Of a stretch of 64,000 bases of DNA, positions 46,154 through 56,898 are shown piece after piece. A model generated the notes under the pieces. It was not told the DNA's origin and made no database searches. It was given only the letters and a program-made list of their open reading frames with translations. The DNA comes from Sneathiella marina (GTDB lineage Bacteria; Pseudomonadota; Alphaproteobacteria; Sneathiellales; Sneathiellaceae), in contig NZ_CP098747.1 in assembly GCF_023746535.1 (NCBI RefSeq), positions 2,936,501-3,000,500 on the forward strand. Reading direction: 5' to 3'. A program made the translations under genes and the position numbers. The first letter of the stretch is position 1, and every line of letters begins with the position of its first letter.

Positions 46154-46199
46154 CGATATGTATCCGACCTTTCCCTCTTCACATCTGACTATATCTATT

Positions 46200-46216
46200 T
46201 TACCGCTTAACGGTAA
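46200..46216. repeat. inverted repeat upstream of the PqiA-like gene
   Basis: TTACCG-CTTAA-CGGTAA is a perfect 6-bp inverted repeat, 47 bases before the start of the PqiA-like gene. It may be an operator. Confidence 0.4.
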
Positions 46217-46326
46217 TCCTGTTCGAACAATATTCTGAATTTTCGAACATTTTGTCGTTATTTCTACAATTTGCTATGATACTAATTCAAACATTAAAAT
46301 AGAACTTTTTCTATTAGTGACTATAT

Positions 46327-46359
46327 TCATCCTTCGGCGTAGCGAAACCAGTCGAAGGA
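46327..46359. repeat. REP-like intergenic element, copy 1
   Basis: The element has inverted ends TCCTTCG (46330-46336) and CGAAGGA (46353-46359). On the minus strand it reads TTCGCTACGCCGAAGGATGA. It shares TTCGCTACGC and GGATGAA with the element near 47211, in opposite orientation, and lies just before the oxygenase gene. Confidence 0.5.
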
Positions 46360-46391
46360 CTCTCGTTTTCAACAAAAAAGAGTGTGAAATT

Positions 46392-47054
46392 ATGGCATAT
46401 TCTCTTGTAGATTGTAAAAATGCGTTTACTGATAGTTTAATTCGTAGTCAGAAAATTGACGATCCTTATCCTCTTTGGCAGATTGATAATGTGTTCCCTA
46501 CCGAAGCAGTAGATGAATTACTGGATATAAAGACGAAACTCACAACTATGGAATATGCATTAGGTCGACGTGAGGAAAATAATGATAAACGAGGTTATTT
46601 TGACGTGGACCGGCGAAGAAATGTTCCCGCCTGCGACACCATTTCAAATCTTTTTCAAGATGCCGATACGGTACAGGCGATTGAAGAAAAATTCAGTATT
46701 GATCTCGCCGGAACATATTTGAGGATCGAGTTTTCTCAAGATAGTGACGGTTTTTGGCTGGAACCACATACGGATCTCGGTGTTAAAAAATTCACGATGT
46801 TATTGGGCCTGTCCAACGATGAGGAAGCACATTCCTGGGGCTCTTCTATTTACCGTGATAAAGATACGTTCCATCATAATACGCCATATAAAAGCAATCG
46901 GGCTTTTGTTTTTGTCCCGTCTGATAATACTTGGCATGGATTTAATGCGCGGACCATAAACGGTGTTCGAAAAGGGCTGATTATCAACTACGTCACCGAA
47001 GAATGGCGGGCACGTCACGAACTCTCTTTTCCGAGCAATCCAATTAAAAAATAA
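46392..47054 (+). CDS. 2OG-Fe(II) oxygenase superfamily protein
   Basis: The 220-aa protein contains EPHTDLG with H126 and D128, a distal histidine H182 in NTWHGFNAR and the 2-oxoglutarate arginine R193 in NGVRKGLIINYV. This completes the H-x-D...H facial triad. The N-terminal part (YPLWQIDNVFPTEAVDELLD) resembles other family members found in sugar or peptide modification loci. No clean ribosome site precedes the ATG. It lies between two REP-like elements, is more AT-rich than neighbours, and may be acquired. Confidence 0.72.
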   Translation: MAYSLVDCKNAFTDSLIRSQKIDDPYPLWQIDNVFPTEAVDELLDIKTKLTTMEYALGRREENNDKRGYFDVDRRRNVPACDTISNLFQDADTVQAIEEKFSIDLAGTYLRIEFSQDSDGFWLEPHTDLGVKKFTMLLGLSNDEEAHSWGSSIYRDKDTFHHNTPYKSNRAFVFVPSDNTWHGFNARTINGVRKGLIINYVTEEWRARHELSFPSNPIKK

Positions 47055-47210
47055 AAGGTTCGCTTGGTCTCAGAAATCCAGCTTATTGGTTTGTTTACAT
47101 AAGAATTCAGCCCTTGCAACAATGTTAATCGAGCCTTCGTTTTTATCAAGAATATCAAAAAGATTACTATCGCTATCAATTCCCTTCTTCATCACCGCGT
47201 GAATTATGGT

Positions 47211-47265
47211 CCCTTCGCTACGCGTGCTCGCTAGCGTTGTCAGGTGAGGATGAACATGAGCGAAG
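47211..47265. repeat. REP-like intergenic element, copy 2
   Basis: The 276-bp gap after the oxygenase gene holds CTTCGCT (47213-47219) and AGCGAAG (47259-47265) as inverted ends, an inner perfect palindrome CGCTAGCG (47229-47236), and the words TTCGCTACGC and GGATGAA shared with copy 1. Such elements are usual in alphaproteobacterial intergenic DNA. Confidence 0.5.
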
Positions 47266-47330
47266 CCGTCTGGATAGACTGAGATGCGAAACCTGAATCG
47301 GCAAAATCATTTTTTACGATGTCTTCAGTG

Positions 47331-48674
47331 TCACTCTTGACGCTTCAGACTAGAGGAAATCTCCTCAAGACTTTTACCCTTGGTTTCAGGAACGCGGAAG
47401 AAAACCGCAATAAAAGCAAATGCAGCGATGGCTGCATAGCTCCAAAAAGTTAAAGCAGGCCCCAATCTTTCCATTATGCTCAAAAAACTAAATGTAACCA
47501 ACATAAAGGACGACCAAATAGCCATAGTCGTGACACTCATGGCGGGCCCTCTTACATGTTGAGGGAAAAGCTCCGCAATCAGAAGAAAGGTTACGCTAGC
47601 AGGGCCAGCTGCCCATGCTCCGGCAAGCAGCATTACACCCCCTACTGCCATCCACTTGATCAGCAGGGTTTCTCCCCCGGTTGCAAAAGCCAGCCCCAAT
47701 GGAACTAATCCGGCTACCATCCCAGCATATCCCCAAAGGAGAAGCGGACGGCGACCAACCTTATCAACGAGCAGCATCGAGACAAACTGACCTATGAACA
47801 GAGCTACGCCAATTCCAACACCCGCCAGTATTTCTAAAGACACAGATTCCATACCCGCAAACCCAAAAATCGTCGGTCCATAAAAGAAAGCAATGCTTAT
47901 GCCTGTCACCCGTTGGAAAATACCTATTCCAAGGCCGATGACCAGTATGGGCCTGACATCATTTCCAAGAAGCCCTGCCCAGCCCCCCGCTTGGGGTGAA
48001 ACACCAGCTTGAATTCTGCCCAACTCCCCGCCAACATTATCAGTAGCGCGAAGTCGTTCCAAAGCGTCGCGGGCTTGATCAGGACGATTATTACATATAC
48101 ACCAGCGCGGCGTTTCCGGAAGCATCCAGACTCCGGCAGCAAAAGGTATCGCTATAAAAGCTGGAAAACCAAGCATCCATCGCCAGTTCCCTGTGGTATC
48201 AAATGCAAGTTCGACCAGATATCCACAGATGACGCCCCCCATATTTGCTAACATGTAGATGCCGATCAATTTACCGCGAAGATGGTCTGGAGAAATTTCC
48301 GCCAAATATAGTGTCCCAACTACAGAAACCATCCCGATAGCAATACCCACGACGCCCCGAGCAATCGCAATTGAAGACAAATTAGGTGCCAGTGCGGAGG
48401 CCAGGATTCCCAAAAAGAAGATAATAGCGATAATAAATAGAACCTGACGACGACCAAATCGGTCAGCAAGCGGCCCGCCTAACGCGGCCCCAATTAGGGC
48501 GCCAAACAATAAAATGCCGATAATCATTTCTTCTTGAAAAGGTGAGAGTGAAAACTCGATTTTAATGAACAAAATTGCTCCCGCAATTACCGTCGAGTTA
48601 TACCCGAAGAGCAAACCACTGAGGGCAATGACACAGGTGGTAAAATAGATAAATCCAGTTGTTCGCTTCTTCAT
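47331..48674 (-). CDS. MFS transporter, sugar porter family
   Basis: The 447-aa protein has 12 hydrophobic segments and strong sugar-porter signatures: GGPLADRFGRRQVLFI after helix 2, RGVVGIAIGMVSVVGTLYLAEISP, LVDKVGRRPLLLWG, and the C-terminal PETKGKSLEEI. It imports a sugar or polyol with protons. It lies downstream of the nitrilase, membrane protein and GntR genes on the same strand (89 bases from the nitrilase stop) and may be part of their unit. Confidence 0.88.
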   Translation of the reverse strand: MKKRTTGFIYFTTCVIALSGLLFGYNSTVIAGAILFIKIEFSLSPFQEEMIIGILLFGALIGAALGGPLADRFGRRQVLFIIAIIFFLGILASALAPNLSSIAIARGVVGIAIGMVSVVGTLYLAEISPDHLRGKLIGIYMLANMGGVICGYLVELAFDTTGNWRWMLGFPAFIAIPFAAGVWMLPETPRWCICNNRPDQARDALERLRATDNVGGELGRIQAGVSPQAGGWAGLLGNDVRPILVIGLGIGIFQRVTGISIAFFYGPTIFGFAGMESVSLEILAGVGIGVALFIGQFVSMLLVDKVGRRPLLLWGYAGMVAGLVPLGLAFATGGETLLIKWMAVGGVMLLAGAWAAGPASVTFLLIAELFPQHVRGPAMSVTTMAIWSSFMLVTFSFLSIMERLGPALTFWSYAAIAAFAFIAVFFRVPETKGKSLEEISSSLKRQE

Positions 48675-48763
48675 GACGCTCTTATCTCAGTACTGATACC
48701 AGTTTCGATAGTCATTATATCCGAACAGAGAGGAAAAGCATCAATACAATACGCCTGCCACTA

Positions 48764-50662
48764 TTACCTCCAGCAAGAAACAAAATAATCAGTACTTTCC
48801 TGCCATCTCTGAAAACATTTTTGAGTAGGGTTCAATACTAGTGGAATATAGAGCTCAGGTCTTCGGCCATCGATGATAAACTGCTGGCTTGTCCACCATG
48901 TCTTCGGAGCGATTGTCTGGAAATTGACAGCCAACACTTCTTCTTGATCACGTGACGCCACAACTGGAGGATAATATCCGTTCGTAGGATCAAGGGAATA
49001 AAGCCCGCTGCTTCCGAGAAATTCCTGATCCGTTTTCACAAAGTTCGCCGCCATCAAATAAGCTTGCGCATTTTTAGCGGTCGCATACCAGATTACATTT
49101 GTATTAGAGGGGTATTTACGGGTCAGGAATCCTTTGTCGAGTTCATCGGCTATCCCATATTGACCAGTCCAGGAAACCGGTACGACAATCATATCTGCCC
49201 TCCTGACGCTAAGAACATCAGCGGCCTCCGGATACAACACCTCATCACCAATCAATAGACCAATGCGACCTATTTTCGTGTCAATTACCGGGATATCATT
49301 CCCGGCTGTGAGCCATTTTTTTTCTTTTGTATTCAGGTGCGTTTTACGATACTCGCCGACAATTTTACCCTGAGGACCGAGTATGCGGGCGGTTTTATAA
49401 TATTTCTCACTGTCTTTAGTGACTGTGCTATAGACCAGATAACTGTCATGTCGATTAGCCAGAACACTGAAGTATGCATTTATTTCATCGGCTGAGTTAG
49501 CCAGCTCTTTGGCTTTTTCAGTCGATAATGGTGGACCCGTTAAAGAATATTCCGGGAACACAATCAAATTGGTGACAAGCGAGACATTCTCTTCCAGCAA
49601 AGTGTTTACTTTAGATTTATTGGCGGCCATATCATTGGCCTGTGGCGTATATTGCACCAAAAGTGCGTTGACATCATGAGATAGCCGCGACGCCATCATT
49701 GGTCTTGGTGACATGTTCAGGGTTATATCACCATAGAGTTCAGGCCGACGGTATTTTAACAATTCCTTGGCTGAGTTTTCATAAAGAGATCGATCAATAT
49801 TGCCATATAATATTGTTGGATCTGCGTCGTTTGAAGCTTGCCCCTTTTGCGTACTCACGGCTGCTTGCGCGATGTTTTTTCCGAGAGGGTCCCAAATGGA
49901 GGCGCCGCCTAGATAATGCACACCGATCCCAAGTGCATCATTTTTTTCAATATTGGTCCGGTTAGTTGCAACAACAAACAGACCGTTCTGTAATGCTTGC
50001 TGCTGTACATCTGAGATTGAAATGTGAACGCCGGCCATATCAGGATCGGGGTTTAACATTCGACCTGAACTTGCAATGAACGCGAGAAGGTTTGCACCTT
50101 TTAGCGATGCAAGGCGCGTCGATTGGTAGAAATAATCATCGTAACAAATGATAATTGATATTTTACCAAGCTCGGTGTCAAAAACGGGTATTCCCAGATT
50201 TCCCTGAGCGGCCCATCCACTTTCCAACAAGAAGAGGTTGTTTTTTCGATACTTCCCGACCAGCCCGTCTGGTCCGACCAGGAAGGCAGCATTGTAGTAC
50301 ATCCCGGTAGCATCATCGACTTCCGGCATTCCCGCAACAATATATACCGCGTATTTCTTGGCAAGCTCTTCAAAATAAGAGGTTGTTTTTCCAGGGATTG
50401 TATCAACGAATGGAGCAATTTCAGATCGCGATCCATACAAGTAACCTGTTGTGCTCATTTCCGGAAAAAGAATAAGTTTGGCTTCACTTTCTGCGGCCTG
50501 CTTGACCAACGCTTCCATCGCCGGAAAATTTTGCTCGCGCTGTTTAAAAACGGGGTTGAATTCAATGGCTGCCACCTTAAAGGAAGGCTTCTCTGATGCA
50601 GAGGCAGGGAAAAACATACATAGAGTCAGAAGGATATAAGCACTCGCCAAGATCTTCATCAT
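48764..50662 (-). CDS. exported tandem nitrilase-superfamily protein (second domain lacks catalytic Cys)
   Basis: The 632-aa protein has a signal peptide (MMKILASAYILLTLCMFFPA) and two complete carbon-nitrogen hydrolase domains. The first has the full triad E68 (LILFPEMS), K140 (GKYRKNN) and C173 (IIICYDDY). The second has E371 (LIVFPEYS) and K440 (GEYRKTH), but glycine 472 stands where the cysteine belongs (LLIGDEVLYPE). Both end with RRPELY, which shows an internal duplication. Domain 1 should hydrolyse an amide or nitrile in the periplasm; domain 2 is likely structural or ligand-binding. Single-domain enzymes have about 270-350 aa. It is in a GntR-headed gene group. Confidence 0.85.
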   Translation of the reverse strand: MMKILASAYILLTLCMFFPASASEKPSFKVAAIEFNPVFKQREQNFPAMEALVKQAAESEAKLILFPEMSTTGYLYGSRSEIAPFVDTIPGKTTSYFEELAKKYAVYIVAGMPEVDDATGMYYNAAFLVGPDGLVGKYRKNNLFLLESGWAAQGNLGIPVFDTELGKISIIICYDDYFYQSTRLASLKGANLLAFIASSGRMLNPDPDMAGVHISISDVQQQALQNGLFVVATNRTNIEKNDALGIGVHYLGGASIWDPLGKNIAQAAVSTQKGQASNDADPTILYGNIDRSLYENSAKELLKYRRPELYGDITLNMSPRPMMASRLSHDVNALLVQYTPQANDMAANKSKVNTLLEENVSLVTNLIVFPEYSLTGPPLSTEKAKELANSADEINAYFSVLANRHDSYLVYSTVTKDSEKYYKTARILGPQGKIVGEYRKTHLNTKEKKWLTAGNDIPVIDTKIGRIGLLIGDEVLYPEAADVLSVRRADMIVVPVSWTGQYGIADELDKGFLTRKYPSNTNVIWYATAKNAQAYLMAANFVKTDQEFLGSSGLYSLDPTNGYYPPVVASRDQEEVLAVNFQTIAPKTWWTSQQFIIDGRRPELYIPLVLNPTQKCFQRWQESTDYFVSCWR

Positions 50663-50704
50663 AAAATCCTTTTTTATTGAGATGGTTCAATAACAGAATA
50701 AATA

Positions 50705-51499
50705 CTAAGTACCTTTGATGCTTTTCCACATTACCGCCGCCGCGGCAGCTAAATATATTGTTGAAAGAGCAATAGACGCGAGCATGCCCCAATAAACACC
50801 TAAAGGAACAAGCAAATAGCTCGCGGCTAAAGCGCAAATAATCAAACTACCAATACCGTATGGAAAACCTTTGATAATGCCATGGGCTTCTTCCTTCGAA
50901 TAAGTCACATGAACGATTAGCAACACTGGATAGAGCGTAATGGGAAACCCTGAAAGCAGGCCTGCCCATTTTTCCCCGATCACATTTGCCAATCCTGTAA
51001 TAATGAGAAGAATGGCCGTCGCAACAGCTGCGCGAATGACCAGCATGGTTGGTGTAACCTTTACCTCCTTGCGGCTTCCGGCATCATTTTTGCCAATATC
51101 CCGAAACAGGAATATTGCAATACCGGTAATTGTCACTGTTACAGCTGTCAATATCCACCTGTTCTGAGGCAACAGCCCCAGCGCCGCAGCAACAAGAAGA
51201 AAGACAGTTATTGAAATTACTGATGTCAAAACAGCATTCCAGGCCCCCAATAAACTGGAAAATTTCCAATAGACATAACAGAAGACAAGCGATGCTCCGA
51301 GCCCGCCAAGTGCGGAAAGTGACGCAGAGGACGCGAATTCCGGGCCTTGCTCAACGCCCATAAAAAACAGGCTGACCGCTATGCCAAGTGGAAGGCCTGC
51401 AAAGATACCCGCGATGCGAGGCCCAACACGCTCACTTAACCAGGAGAGACCGAGCACGATTGCTGACGTCACAACGATCTTTATAAAAATCATCATCAT
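50705..51499 (-). CDS. integral membrane protein with internal duplication
   Basis: The 264-aa protein has eight or so hydrophobic segments. Two halves share a pattern: VGPRIAGIFAGLPLGIAVSL in the first and IGEKWAGLLSGFPITLYPVL in the second, each G-x-x-x-AG-x-x-x-G-x-P. This shows an old tandem duplication, as in many small transporters. I do not recognise the family. It is 42 bases before the nitrilase gene and 30 after the GntR gene on the same strand, so a transport role for the nitrilase pathway is plausible. Confidence 0.6.
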   Translation of the reverse strand: MMMIFIKIVVTSAIVLGLSWLSERVGPRIAGIFAGLPLGIAVSLFFMGVEQGPEFASSASLSALGGLGASLVFCYVYWKFSSLLGAWNAVLTSVISITVFLLVAAALGLLPQNRWILTAVTVTITGIAIFLFRDIGKNDAGSRKEVKVTPTMLVIRAAVATAILLIITGLANVIGEKWAGLLSGFPITLYPVLLIVHVTYSKEEAHGIIKGFPYGIGSLIICALAASYLLVPLGVYWGMLASIALSTIYLAAAAAVMWKSIKGT

Positions 51500-51529
51500 T
51501 GTTCAGCACCTGCTATTGAGTAGAATGGA

Positions 51530-52249
51530 CTAATTATTTACCGCTTCCTCCATTACATTGGCCCAAACAGGCTCCATATGCCGACGCAAAATTGCTGAAA
51601 GCGCATCTCCATTACGCTCTTGCAAAACTGCGATAATTTTCTCATGTTCACTAATGGAACGTCCCCATTCTGTGTTTTTGAGATTATTTCTATACCGAGC
51701 CCTGTAGACCTGCAGATTGAGGCGCGTGTGATTTTCGATCAGTGCACTATTCTGACTTAGGCGAACGATACCTGAGTGAATATCCTGATTCAGTTTAAAA
51801 TATTGAAGACGGTTATTGCGCTTTTGGGCAGCAAGCATTTCATAATGCAATGCGGTTATTTCATCGACATCAAGCTTTGTTGCAAATTTAACGGCCAACT
51901 CACCGGCAAATGCCTCCAAGACACTCAATAAAATCAACTTGTCCCGTGTCTCTTCAGGCGTAGGATTTGCAACAATGGCACCACGATTTGGGATCAACTC
52001 CACAAGGCCTTCTGCCGCAAGAATTTTAAGCCCTTCGCGAAGGGGCGTTCGGGAGACATTCAAAGCCTCCGAAACAATGCGTTCCCGGATCGGTTCACCC
52101 TGCTTAAGTTCATCTTGAACAATCATATCACGCATAAGGCTGGCAACCTGATGCACCAATGGAAGCGTGATAACTGCGCCAGCATTTGAAGCTTGTTCAT
52201 TATTGGTGAATTCTTCGGAAGATTCTTGTGCTGTCGGTTCATCGGCCAT
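51530..52249 (-). CDS. GntR family regulator, FCD subfamily
   Basis: The 239-aa protein has an N-terminal extension of about 25 acidic and polar residues, then the winged helix (MRDMIVQDELKQGEPIRERI, ALNVSRTPLREGLKILAAEG) and an FCD domain with the metal-binding histidine region (KLNQDIHSGIVRLSQN). It is the first gene of a minus-strand group with the membrane protein, tandem nitrilase and MFS genes. Two candidate operators lie upstream. It most likely represses its own operon until a ligand binds. Confidence 0.87.
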   Translation of the reverse strand: MADEPTAQESSEEFTNNEQASNAGAVITLPLVHQVASLMRDMIVQDELKQGEPIRERIVSEALNVSRTPLREGLKILAAEGLVELIPNRGAIVANPTPEETRDKLILLSVLEAFAGELAVKFATKLDVDEITALHYEMLAAQKRNNRLQYFKLNQDIHSGIVRLSQNSALIENHTRLNLQVYRARYRNNLKNTEWGRSISEHEKIIAVLQERNGDALSAILRRHMEPVWANVMEEAVNN

Positions 52250-52291
52250 GATTTCTTAGTATCATCTGTATTAAGCTGGCGTCAATATTTT

Positions 52292-52299
52292 TGCATACA
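52292..52299. promoter_or_regulatory. GntR operator-like site, imperfect (TGCATACA)
   Basis: TGCATACA differs in one base from the perfect palindrome at 52408-52415. It lies 43 bases before the GntR start, suitable for autorepression. Confidence 0.4.
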
Positions 52300-52405
52300 A
52301 TCAGGATGGTAAGGAGCTAACACACAGTATTTTTAGCCTAAATTCATATAAGTATATAAAAAGAAGTGAAAAAACCGTACGCACTCCCTGCTGAAGAGTT
52401 TAAAT

Positions 52406-52417
52406 TTTGTATACAAA
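52406..52417. promoter_or_regulatory. GntR operator (TTTGTATACAAA)
   Basis: A perfect 12-bp palindrome TTTGTATACAAA in AT-rich DNA, 157 bases before the GntR start. Its core TGTATACA is the same as in the TRAP/GntR control region at 18 kb, as expected for related FCD regulators. Confidence 0.6.
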
Positions 52418-52740
52418 TTTCTCCAAACTTCATATCTCAATCTTTGCTGTTGCCATAGAAAAATCATTTAAGTCGCGCGGGACTTACCGCAATCGCAGTG
52501 GAGCATGAAGAAATTACGTCCTGATAATATCCTCACGCCAATGTCATCTCTAAGTTACTTGAGCTCGCTTGCCACCGCGACTAAATATCATTCATGAAAA
52601 TATTTCCTTGTAATTTGATATTATTCTGCCGATCCAAACATATCCTCGCAACTGGTGTAGATAACAAACTCGTTAGCCCTTCCCCATCGTTGAAGATCCT
52701 CTTTGCTTTGACCGGCAGTGCCTTCATGAAAGGAGCTAGA
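52418..52740. other. intergenic stretch before the first DUF547 gene
   Basis: This region separates the GntR operator from the DUF547 gene. A frame open from 52594 runs in phase into DUF547, but its residues look random and the signal peptide starts only at 52741. A small imperfect dyad occurs near 52480. I see no other feature. Confidence 0.4.
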
Positions 52741-53481
52741 ATGAGAGCTATACCGATAGCTTTTATCGTCTTGATCACTGCTGTTTTCCCTCAAGCAACT
52801 TGGGCTTACTTCGATCAATTGGATGGTTTACTCGCAACTCACGTCGAAACCAAAACTGTAGATGGCATTCGATACAATGGCGTAAATTATGGCGCCTGGG
52901 GGAAAGACCCCCGCCATACACTTGTACGGGACGATATTCTAACAACAAATCCAGCTACGTTATTATCGAAAGAAGAAAAATTGGCGTTTTGGATCAACGC
53001 CTACAATGTCCTTACAATCGATCTGATTATTCGTGAGAAAGAACCTGAAAGTATCAAGAATCTCGGCGGGCTGTTCAGCAGCCCTTGGAGTAAACACACA
53101 TGGGAAATAGCTGGGCAATCCTATACACTAGACAATATTGAACACGATATCATCCGCCCTCTTGGAGAAGCCCGCATCCATTTCGCGATAAACTGTGCCG
53201 CAAAATCCTGCCCGGATTTACGCGTCGAAGCCTATCGACCGGAAAAACTCAACACACAGCTGGCTGATCAAGTCACCTTGACATTCAGCAATGGCACTAA
53301 AGGTTTTCGTAAAAGTCCGGCCCAGAATATTATTCACGTTACAAAGGTCATGGATTGGTTTGGGGAAGATTTCGACGATCGGAATCTGCATAGCTGGTTA
53401 ATGCCTTATTTTCCAAGCCTGATTAATGATCAGACAGAAATAAAATTTTTCAGCTACGACTGGTCACTAAACAAATCATGA
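52741..53481 (+). CDS. exported DUF547 protein (first of two)
   Basis: The 246-aa protein starts with a signal peptide (MRAIPIAFIVLITAVFPQAT) and carries the DUF547 motifs FWINAYN (83-89) and INCAAKSCPDLR (150-161), plus a C-terminal FFSYDWSLNKS. AAAGGAGC before ATG 52741 fixes the start. DUF547 proteins are periplasmic or outer-membrane-linked and have no known activity. The conserved N-C-A-x-x-x-C-P could be a catalytic or metal site. It lies 81 bases before a radical SAM gene, and a second DUF547 gene follows that in opposite orientation. Confidence 0.85.
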   Translation: MRAIPIAFIVLITAVFPQATWAYFDQLDGLLATHVETKTVDGIRYNGVNYGAWGKDPRHTLVRDDILTTNPATLLSKEEKLAFWINAYNVLTIDLIIREKEPESIKNLGGLFSSPWSKHTWEIAGQSYTLDNIEHDIIRPLGEARIHFAINCAAKSCPDLRVEAYRPEKLNTQLADQVTLTFSNGTKGFRKSPAQNIIHVTKVMDWFGEDFDDRNLHSWLMPYFPSLINDQTEIKFFSYDWSLNKS

Positions 53482-53562
53482 CCTGATCTCGCTGCAAAAA
53501 AGAGGAATGGGAACTCATCCCTTAAACAGGCACTGGCAATAAATGAATTGAACTGATCGAAT

Positions 53563-54927
53563 ATGGGCTATCTAACAAACAAGGAAATTCACGATTTCTT
53601 ACCCGCAGGAATAAGAACCGACACGCCTGAAGATTTATCAAAACCGCTCCGTACTGGTCTGCAGCAAGAAAAGTGGTTTACTGCCGCTCAAATGGCAGGA
53701 AGAAATTTCCCGATTGCTTGTGTTGCATTGGAAATTACGCAACGTTGCAATTTGGATTGCTCGCTCTGCTACCTTTCTGAAATTGCAGAAGTTGTCAAAG
53801 ATGTTCCCGTTTTTGAACTAAAACGGCGCATCAAAATGATTCATGCTCATTATGGGGATTTCACGAATGTCCAGATTACCGGAGGAGATCCCACCTTACG
53901 ATCAATTTCGGAGCTTGTGGAAATAGTAGAAGAGATCAAATCATACAATATGCGAAGTGCTCTCTTTACGAACGGTATAAAAGCCAGTCGGGATATGCTT
54001 GAAAGATTATCAGAAGCAGGACTAGATGATGTTGTTTTTCACGTCGACGCAACTCAAGGACGCAAGAACGGCAACACTGAAAATTTGCTAAACTCAGTCC
54101 GTCTCGAATATATCAATCGTACGGAAGGCCTACCCTTAAGGGTACTTTTCAATACCACAATCTTCGATGGAAATTTTCATTCTATTCCTGACTTAGTAGA
54201 GTTTTTCATAGATCACGCTAACAAGGTCAGTTTGGCGTCTTTTCAAATGCAGGCCGACACCGGGCGCGGGGTCTTACGGGAACGTAATGAAGACTTAATC
54301 TCCCAGCATTCAGTAATGGCGCTTATTGAAAAAGGAGCAGGAATAAAGCTCCCCTTTGATATGCCCTTAATCGGCCATCCTGATTGCAATAAGTACACTG
54401 CCCTTTTCAAAGCTGGAAATGCTCGAACACCTCTCTATGAAGACAGTGGGTTTTTTAGGCAGTTATTCTCATTGTTGTCGGAGGAAAATTTAAAAAAGAA
54501 TTGGAGTGTTGGCAGTGAGATTATGTGGGAAACAATAAAAGCCTGTTTCACATCGCCTTTACTTGCCGGGCGGGCATTGGCCTATATTGTCAGGAAATGC
54601 TGGTCCTTAAAAGTTGGCTTATTAACGGGAAACAGACCACACAGAATCAGCTTTTTCATCCATAATTTCATGGACGCGGAAAAACTGGAAGCGGGTCGAT
54701 GCAAATCCTGCGTTTTCATGGTGGCAACTGCAAATGGGCCCCTATCAATGTGTGTTCATAACGCCAAACGTAACACAATGATTTCGCAGCCGGTTCCAGC
54801 GATCGGTAACAATCCCGAATGGAATCCCATACCCGCCAATCTATTAAATCAGGAACCGGAATTATTTTCCGTGAAACGCTTGAAAGGGCGACTTCGTGCC
54901 GCCAGAAACAAGGAAAAAGGGCTCTAG
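53563..54927 (+). CDS. radical SAM protein with extra cysteine motifs
   Basis: The 454-aa protein has the 4Fe-4S motif C62-x3-C66-x2-C69 (RCNLDCSLCY) and the SAM-binding GGDP (107-110). Further on, an HPDC (C275) and three late cysteines (C380, C383 and C397 in CKSCVFMV and SMCVHN) suggest one or two auxiliary clusters. The HPxC motif recalls lipid-modifying enzymes of the tetraether synthase type, but this is only a resemblance. It acts in the cytoplasm. Location between two exported DUF547 proteins suggests a joint role in making or modifying an envelope component. Confidence 0.82.
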   Translation: MGYLTNKEIHDFLPAGIRTDTPEDLSKPLRTGLQQEKWFTAAQMAGRNFPIACVALEITQRCNLDCSLCYLSEIAEVVKDVPVFELKRRIKMIHAHYGDFTNVQITGGDPTLRSISELVEIVEEIKSYNMRSALFTNGIKASRDMLERLSEAGLDDVVFHVDATQGRKNGNTENLLNSVRLEYINRTEGLPLRVLFNTTIFDGNFHSIPDLVEFFIDHANKVSLASFQMQADTGRGVLRERNEDLISQHSVMALIEKGAGIKLPFDMPLIGHPDCNKYTALFKAGNARTPLYEDSGFFRQLFSLLSEENLKKNWSVGSEIMWETIKACFTSPLLAGRALAYIVRKCWSLKVGLLTGNRPHRISFFIHNFMDAEKLEAGRCKSCVFMVATANGPLSMCVHNAKRNTMISQPVPAIGNNPEWNPIPANLLNQEPELFSVKRLKGRLRAARNKEKGL

Positions 54928-54935
54928 TATGAAAT

Positions 54936-55817
54936 CTAATCGCGCATATCGCTTCCAGTAACCAGTCCGTCGGCTGTTAGGCGCTTGTTTGGATCCATTC
55001 CCTCATTTAGGGACCAGTCATAAAAATAGCCGCCAATCCCATCCGCATTTTGCAAATATTTCTTCAAATCAGCATTTGCATATTCCCGCAAATGGCGGAG
55101 CACTGACGCTTCCGACCCTCCAAAATCCTCCAGATACCAGCTATAGATTTTGGAAACATATATTCTCCCATCCTCCATTACGGACACCCCACGCATATTA
55201 TTTACATATTCCCGTGCAGCCTGCGCCATTGCGCCTTCAACATTCTCTGCTGTATATGCTTTACGGCCTAAATTTGGACAACCCGTCGCCGCGCAATTCA
55301 AAAGATAATGGATACGTGGTTCAGCAGACCATACCGGGCGTACAATTCCATGTTCTATATCATGTAAACTCAGAGATTCTCCGTTCACAATTAGGCGCTT
55401 GTCTTCCCAAGGGCCTAAGTCAAAAATGCCGTCCTTAATATTTCGAATACTCGCAACAGGGTAATGGTCCAAAATTATATCAACTGTTTTGGCATTATAA
55501 AGATTGACCCAGTATGCTAATTGAGAATTTTTAGACAGCTTCGACGAATCCGCGTTCGACAGAAGTTCAATATAATTTTTTAGTTGATTATGGTCGGCAT
55601 CAGTTACTTCAGAATATGCGACCCGTACAACACCCAGTTCGTCAAGAAACGTATATGTCTCTAAAAAACCTCCCCATTCTTCATGATCTACATCATTTGC
55701 AACCCCAAAAACCTGATGTTCTTCGTCAAGCAGGTCGCTATTTGGAATTGCCAGACGTTCTAAGGAGGCGCATCCACCCAGGAATAAAATAAGTGTTGCA
55801 AGTACCAGATATCTCAT
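54936..55817 (-). CDS. DUF547 lipoprotein (second of two)
   Basis: The 293-aa protein has a lipoprotein signal with lipobox LGGC (C16). It shares the family motifs YWVNLYNAK (102-110), NCAATGCP (174-181) and FYDWSLNEG with the gene at 52741. Its N-terminal half has an extra segment. It stands convergent to the radical SAM gene with eight bases between stops. The conserved cysteine pair pattern matches that of its neighbour, so both should have the same biochemical activity in different envelope sites. Confidence 0.85.
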   Translation of the reverse strand: MRYLVLATLILFLGGCASLERLAIPNSDLLDEEHQVFGVANDVDHEEWGGFLETYTFLDELGVVRVAYSEVTDADHNQLKNYIELLSNADSSKLSKNSQLAYWVNLYNAKTVDIILDHYPVASIRNIKDGIFDLGPWEDKRLIVNGESLSLHDIEHGIVRPVWSAEPRIHYLLNCAATGCPNLGRKAYTAENVEGAMAQAAREYVNNMRGVSVMEDGRIYVSKIYSWYLEDFGGSEASVLRHLREYANADLKKYLQNADGIGGYFYDWSLNEGMDPNKRLTADGLVTGSDMRD

Positions 55818-56058
55818 TGCTCAGCTCGTTTCCATTTCCAATATTGAATGTTCTACAGAGGTCGTATTCTATCATCTCGCTCACTTGCGAAAAAATAACA
55901 GTACGGTCACAATAACTTTATCGGCTTGGCACCAAACCTGTCACATTCGACAGAGGGACACGTGAATGATGGGGAAGCTGGAGAGCGGTGTCACATTGGC
56001 TCAATACACATAAAAACCGGTATTATTGGACGAAACATAGAGTGGCAACCAGCGAGCA

Positions 56059-56709
56059 TCAGCCCTCAAAAGATCCAATTGCAATCCGAAGCGCATCCAG
56101 AATTAATTTAAGGCTGATGGCACCGAGAATAAGCGCCATCATACGGTCCATCCAAGTTTTTGCTCGATAATAGAAATTCTGTGATTTCCTGATGGAAAAG
56201 GCAAATGCAACAATGGAATACCAAAGTGTTTCGTTGAAAAAAACAATTATCAAACATACCAGAGAAACCCAAGTTGGCGCGTGAGGCGGAATAAAGGCAA
56301 AGAAAATAGAGCCGAAAAATATGACAACTTTTGGGTTTGCAAGCTGTGTTAGAAAGCCTTGCAAGAAAGCCCTAGACAAAGTTACATTTCCGGTCTCTCG
56401 CGTCTCCCCCAAGCTCGTATCGTGAGCGTGCCGCCAGTGGGAAGCGGCGAGATAACCCAGATAACCACCACCGCAAAACTTCAACGCGGCATACAGCCAC
56501 TGATCATTCTTCAACGCAACCGCAAGACCGACCATCGCTGCGGTTGCCCAAACTATGGAGCCCAGGCCCATACCGATACTTGCGGATAAGGCTGCCGCTC
56601 TCCCTGCTGACAACGCCAGTTTCGAAATGACAAGGAACGACTGACCTGGGCTAACAACAGCCAGTACCTGCACGAGAGCCAGTGTTAATAAGGGCGGGAG
56701 AAATTCCAA
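56059..56709 (-). CDS. LysE/RhtB family exporter
   Basis: The 216-aa membrane protein has the family start (LALVQVLAVVSPGQSFLVIS) and the central LTQLANPKVVIFFGSIFFAF motif. It has six hydrophobic segments. It is the third LysE protein in the window and not close to the others. The expected role is export of amino acids or similar compounds. Confidence 0.86.
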   Translation of the reverse strand: MEFLPPLLTLALVQVLAVVSPGQSFLVISKLALSAGRAAALSASIGMGLGSIVWATAAMVGLAVALKNDQWLYAALKFCGGGYLGYLAASHWRHAHDTSLGETRETGNVTLSRAFLQGFLTQLANPKVVIFFGSIFFAFIPPHAPTWVSLVCLIIVFFNETLWYSIVAFAFSIRKSQNFYYRAKTWMDRMMALILGAISLKLILDALRIAIGSFEG

Positions 56710-56898
56710 AACAACTCCGGGGAAGATTACCTTATGACGAGAGCTTACGGCATAATAGAAAAATTGGGGAGTTGATGCACCAACTTCCTACTGGGCATTA
56801 ATTGATCAAATTCAGAAACGCATAACCAAGATCATGAGCCGTTAAATCAATTGGGCAAATTGCACGATCTTTCTGCGCGCGCTGCACGCAGTCAATTT

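Follow-up and report, generated by a model that had tools for sequence, protein, structure and literature searches.

A radical SAM enzyme (RS) and one DUF547 protein constitute a conserved, previously undescribed two-gene module. It is represented in the genome of Sneathiella marina, in a stretch of 64,000 nucleotides (the window), where three genes lie side by side. RS (53563-54927, + strand) is an ORF of 454 aa for a Tes/MJ0619-like radical SAM enzyme, which is detected by the Pfam Radical_SAM profile (PF04055) with an E-value of 9.1e-16 and a score of 58.9 bits, over the cut-off. D1 (52741-53481, + strand, 246 aa) is located 81 bp upstream of RS on the same strand and encodes a DUF547 protein (PF04784; 2.8e-27, 95.6 bits) with a predicted signal peptide, its N-terminus being MRAIPIAFIVLITAVFPQATWA. 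D2 (54936-55817, − strand, 293 aa) is convergent with RS at a distance of 8 bp and encodes a DUF547 lipoprotein (4.7e-24, 85.2 bits), whose N-terminus, MRYLVLATLILFLGGC, contains the lipobox LGGC. Both DUF547 scores exceed the Pfam gathering score of 27 bits. The ORFs and Pfam matches agree with the preliminary description of this DNA, in which D1 was recognised as a DUF547 protein with a signal peptide and D2 as a DUF547 lipoprotein facing RS. That description foresaw neither the relationship of RS to Tes nor the arsenic context reported below, both of which are new. D1 and D2 are the only DUF547 genes in the 4.07-Mb host genome. The AlphaFold2 model of D2 has a mean pLDDT of 91. Scans for promoters and terminators near D1, RS and D2 give no excess of sites over shuffled sequence that could be interpreted.

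The neighbourhood survey indicates that RS and DUF547 are tightly paired. DUF547 is directly adjacent to RS, within 700 bp, at 74 of 85 loci, and is present beside RS in 37 of the 44 groups into which the enzymes fall at <70% identity; the scan of genome contigs with the RS alignment gave 80 loci. In the other seven groups no DUF547 gene is found beside RS in the DNA examined, some contigs of which are short. In most cases DUF547 comes next after RS and overlaps it by 4 bp, and the convergent arrangement of the window is found in the closest relatives (Amylibacter, Roseovarius). The module is spread over Proteobacteria, Bdellovibrionota, Myxococcota, SAR324 and Acidobacteriota. The expectation of the preliminary description that DUF547 genes recur beside RS homologues across genera is thus strongly borne out for one DUF547 gene. 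No third family is conserved overall near RS-DUF547 in the survey of RS loci; MauE/DoxX (10 groups) and chalcone-isomerase-like genes (seven groups) are frequent, but not general, neighbours. An ORF upstream of RS at L106 was dropped as a neighbour gene, since it has no family match. Of 21 open-access papers that name DUF547, none mentions radical SAM as well, and to judge from titles and abstracts most of them are plant studies.

RS is not found in 24 other genomes of the genus, and is found in four of 384 other genomes of the class: in three of these a close homologue (43-47% identity) is encoded directly next to DUF547, and the fourth enzyme is distant and without an adjacent DUF547. Of 299 genomes of the phylum that were sampled independently, four carry RS, three of them with adjacent DUF547; the fourth (G442) has DUF547 on another contig. 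DUF547 itself is present in just 63 of these 299 genomes, and most of its genes stand without RS. The genes that flank the 46.2-56.9 kb region of the window adjoin in several genus relatives and are 1.1-1.6 kb apart in three. This result indicates that D1, RS and D2 are all located on an accessory island of ~10.7 kb (46154-56898), which is missing from the matching site in genus relatives. The island is probably horizontally acquired; the G+C content of D1, RS and D2 is 0.43-0.44, compared with 0.48 for the window. The island also carries genes for an MFS sugar-type transporter, a permease, a GntR/FCD regulator, a LysE exporter and a double-domain nitrilase-family protein. The ORF at 48764-50662 encodes a predicted exported protein of 632 aa, whose single chain combines a signal peptide with two carbon-nitrogen hydrolase domains of the nitrilase family.

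RS is a member of the radical SAM superfamily, as judged by its CX3CX2C motif and by its TIM-barrel core, for which the PF04055 score and the fold match speak. No variation is seen among 43 homologues at the cluster cysteines C62/C66/C69, nor at H272 and C275, which lie in a GH-P-D-C275 motif; the three cluster cysteines and the HPDC sequence were correctly noted in the preliminary description. Its three late cysteines (380, 383 and 397) are also all present, but only C383 and C397 are invariant; more than half of the homologues have I, V or L in place of C380. C53, which it had missed, is invariant. The AlphaFold2 model of RS (pLDDT 91.5) matches GDGT-MAS (7tom/7tol) best in the PDB, over its whole length (E-value 1e-15, 422 columns), and the RS family profile matches both the core (2.6e-26) and the C-terminal cluster region of Tes. 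RS and Tes/GDGT-MAS (MJ0619) share the CX3CX2C core, an FQxxxxTGR region, a C-terminal HxxC...C...C arrangement and the fold over the whole length. C275, C383 and C397 align with Tes cysteines and are candidate ligands of a C-terminal auxiliary [4Fe-4S] cluster. The position of the labile Met439 of Tes (numbered in the PDB chain on the assumption of a 20-residue tag) corresponds to H367 of RS, which is His in 39 and Gln in four of the 43 homologues.

RS is nevertheless not Tes. Among named families, TrsS and Tes come closest to RS, and both score far below their cut-offs: TrsS (NF045646), the best-scoring one, gives 95.2 bits over residues 53-400 (cut-off 490), and Tes (NF045702) gives 76.6 bits (cut-off 450). 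Tes has Cys-rich N-terminal rubredoxin-like and [Fe4S4]N domains (PMC9433317), and its core begins at residue 111 of the deposited chain, whereas RS has 52 residues before the core and none of the N-terminal Cys motifs of Tes. The low score and the missing N-terminal domains exclude that RS is Tes; RS also differs from it in having His for the labile Met439, in being bacterial and in being paired with DUF547. TrsS, a radical SAM (seleno)protein, matches most of the length of RS, but RS has no selenocysteine codon, and no function of TrsS is found in the mainly open-access literature searched. Tes joins unreactive carbons, forming C-C bonds between lipid tails. Judging from its sequence and model, RS likely works like Tes.

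The neighbourhood of the module provides the first lead on what RS or DUF547 might do. Six independent RS groups and two plasmid lineages adjoin arsenic genes (ArsM, ArsS, TIGR04282/TIGR04283). ArsM-type methyltransferases, which carry the cysteine motifs YGCG, SNCVxNL and GECLxGA, adjoin RS-DUF547 at eight loci in four groups (L048, L074, L083 and L086). In L040 and L050 the pair has ArsS proper as a neighbour, with scores of 446 and 405 bits against a cut-off of 300. ArsS (TIGR04167) is a radical SAM enzyme like RS, but belongs to a separate family, which does not appear in the top 25 family matches obtained with RS. L040 contains genes for a Pst-type transporter, TIGR04283, TIGR04282, ArsS, a nucleoside hydrolase, RS, DUF547, a chalcone isomerase and MauE. 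On Burkholderia glumae plasmids, as annotated, arsS lies three genes before RS-DUF547. A Roseomonas plasmid carries TIGR04282, DUF547, RS, a second radical SAM enzyme, PhnD/PhnE/ATPase and a phosphoesterase in this order, followed on the other strand by a chalcone isomerase, MauE, DUF547, an FAD oxidoreductase and VTT. Arsenic genes are also found beside RS-free DUF547, namely ArsS at L141 and, in an operon at L147:4019-8415, an Rv1681-like radical SAM enzyme, ArsM, TIGR04282, DUF547 and a glycosyltransferase.

ArsM is present in 12 of 47 RS genomes, compared with 28 of 299 sampled genomes (p = 0.005), an enrichment that is only suggestive, because the background is restricted to a single phylum and the RS genomes cover a wider range. 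The enrichment of ArsS in RS genomes (15/47 versus 77/299) is not significant. By chance, ArsM or ArsS is estimated to lie within 7 kb of RS in ~0.35% of genomes, which gives an expectation of ~0.1 case for the 12 + 15 RS genomes with ArsM or ArsS, versus six seen. No arsenic gene lies near most RS loci, among them that of the window and those most closely related to it. Neither ArsM nor ArsS is found in the host genome, which thus lacks an arsenosugar cluster as defined here, suggesting that in this host the substrate comes from outside or is something else. We infer the involvement of RS-DUF547 in arsenic metabolism from this minority of lineages. The C-As bonds of bacterial natural products known at the time of two earlier reports are made by SAM enzymes, two of which, ArsS and the arsinothricin enzyme, are radical SAM enzymes (PMC12159101, PMC8552651). 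Arsenolipids are viewed as sparing phosphate (PMC8552651), and the phosphate- and phosphonate-type transporters encoded beside RS-DUF547 fit this view.

Several other arrangements are seen around the module. At L239:13651-17329, an operon of VTT, FAD oxidoreductase, DUF547, MauE and chalcone-isomerase-like genes faces an RS operon, and the last three of these genes look like a separate module. The gene for the selenoneine synthase SenA is located just upstream of RS-DUF547 in Paraburkholderia (L099:8303-9559). A second, Rv1681-like radical SAM enzyme is encoded beside RS-DUF547 in Acetobacteraceae (L103:2247-3377, L088:12962-13960 and L112:12927-13943). In one Oligoflexia genome, RS is followed directly by a family-2 glycosyltransferase gene instead of DUF547 (L093:11205-11951).

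The best general reading of the module is the one already offered in the preliminary description, namely a radical step in the cytoplasm followed by handling of the product in the envelope. The more specific reading that we tentatively favour, with a likelihood put slightly short of even, is that RS performs this step on an organoarsenical or a molecule attached to it and that DUF547 handles the product in the envelope. RS would cleave SAM in the cytoplasm to generate a 5'-deoxyadenosyl radical, which would take a hydrogen from a carbon of the substrate. The putative auxiliary [4Fe-4S] cluster, with C275, C383, C397 and probably H367 as its ligands, may then hold the substrate radical or steer it into a new bond, and the product, or its carrier, would meet the DUF547 partner on the periplasmic side. 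The pairing and its partner swaps, the Tes-like architecture and the arsenic genes beside RS in a minority of lineages are observed; from these we infer what RS does, on which substrate, and what DUF547 contributes. The module recurs in arsenosugar-type clusters with ArsM, ArsS, nucleoside hydrolase, TIGR04282/TIGR04283 glycosyltransferases and phosphate/phosphonate-type ABC transporters, and the substrate is therefore most likely an organoarsenical or the carbon skeleton joined to it. It is distinctly less likely, and on the whole doubtful, that RS itself makes a C-As bond, or couples an organoarsenical with a lipid or sugar through radical C-H activation, with DUF547 binding or processing the arsenolipid or arsenosugar so formed and its conserved Cys pair meeting trivalent arsenic. 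The DUF547-linked Tes-like enzymes, and DUF547 with them, gain a partner and a testable context. If the arsenic link is true, RS would add a radical step to the later, poorly understood synthesis of bacterial arsenosugars and arsenolipids.

The history of the DUF547 partners bears on two other explanations. In the DUF547 tree, clade A (11 rows including D2, support 100/98) and clade B (24 rows, support 100/100) contain RS neighbours only, and further RS-adjacent DUF547 proteins fall outside both as single cases in SAR324 and elsewhere. In a quick tree of the RS enzymes, whose root is uncertain, those with clade-A partners group together in a single clade that is nested within the enzymes with clade-B partners. 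The DUF547 partner of RS has been exchanged between distant clades. That RS has kept a DUF547 partner through changes of DUF547 lineage suggests that a protein of this kind is functionally required. The preliminary description considered D1, RS and D2 to be a three-gene system acting on one substrate, and the position of D1 81 bp upstream of RS, on the same strand and on the same island, is compatible with this. However, D1 belongs to a DUF547 lineage other than that of D2. Its only close relative (81% identity) is found in a sister species that has one DUF547 gene and no RS, and a synteny comparison shows no neighbours common to the two. At the nearest RS loci, in Amylibacter and Roseovarius, only D2 has a counterpart. 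The NCAxxxCP and YDWSLN ends, from which a common kind of substrate had been deduced as probable, are indeed present in both D1 and D2, but they mark nearly all sampled DUF547 proteins, RS-linked or not, and are therefore no evidence for a shared substrate. A system of three genes is very improbable, and D1 is judged to be a bystander, a separate DUF547 upstream of RS and outside the conserved module.

The strict pairing without a third partner could also mean that RS is a maturase, which modifies a DUF547 residue in the cytoplasm before export, just as anaerobic sulfatase-maturing enzymes modify exported sulfatases. A cytoplasmic radical enzyme with an exported partner, and the conserved cysteines of DUF547, would suit such a role. 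However, no residue is common to clades A and B yet missing from RS-free DUF547, whose conserved core is the same; this speaks against a special modified residue. The swapping of the partner between distant clades and the fold of RS, which matches Tes and not the SPASM maturases, also argue against a maturase, which moreover leaves the arsenic neighbours unexplained and is unlikely. The same fold, Tes-like over the whole length, suggests another possibility, that RS is a lipid enzyme coupling or modifying acyl chains, whose product is moved or trimmed in the envelope by the DUF547 lipoprotein, arsenic being secondary. A recognisable lipobox is present in 20 of the 40 RS-adjacent DUF547 proteins, and the chalcone-isomerase-like proteins encoded nearby in seven groups have a fold known from fatty-acid-binding proteins. 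On the other hand, the two N-terminal metal domains of Tes are missing from RS, which also has His for Met439, and the arsenic neighbours recur in six independent groups. Tes-like homologues, with no product assigned, are moreover known from bacteria without biphytanyl lipids (PMC9433317). A lipid enzyme is about as improbable as a maturase, and the preferred reading remains that of an organoarsenical-related substrate.

The fold of DUF547 gives no usable match with the PDB or with viral models, and a profile search gives no match, so that its active site is not readable from any known structure. Among the DUF547 genes that stand without RS, one clade has a FAD/NAD disulphide-reductase-like gene directly upstream, which encodes 717-725 aa in the longer loci (L114, L115, L116, L118, L120, L121, L132-L134, L138, L148-L151 and L153-L155). 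A tandem pair of DUF547 genes without RS is located at L157:6199-7946.
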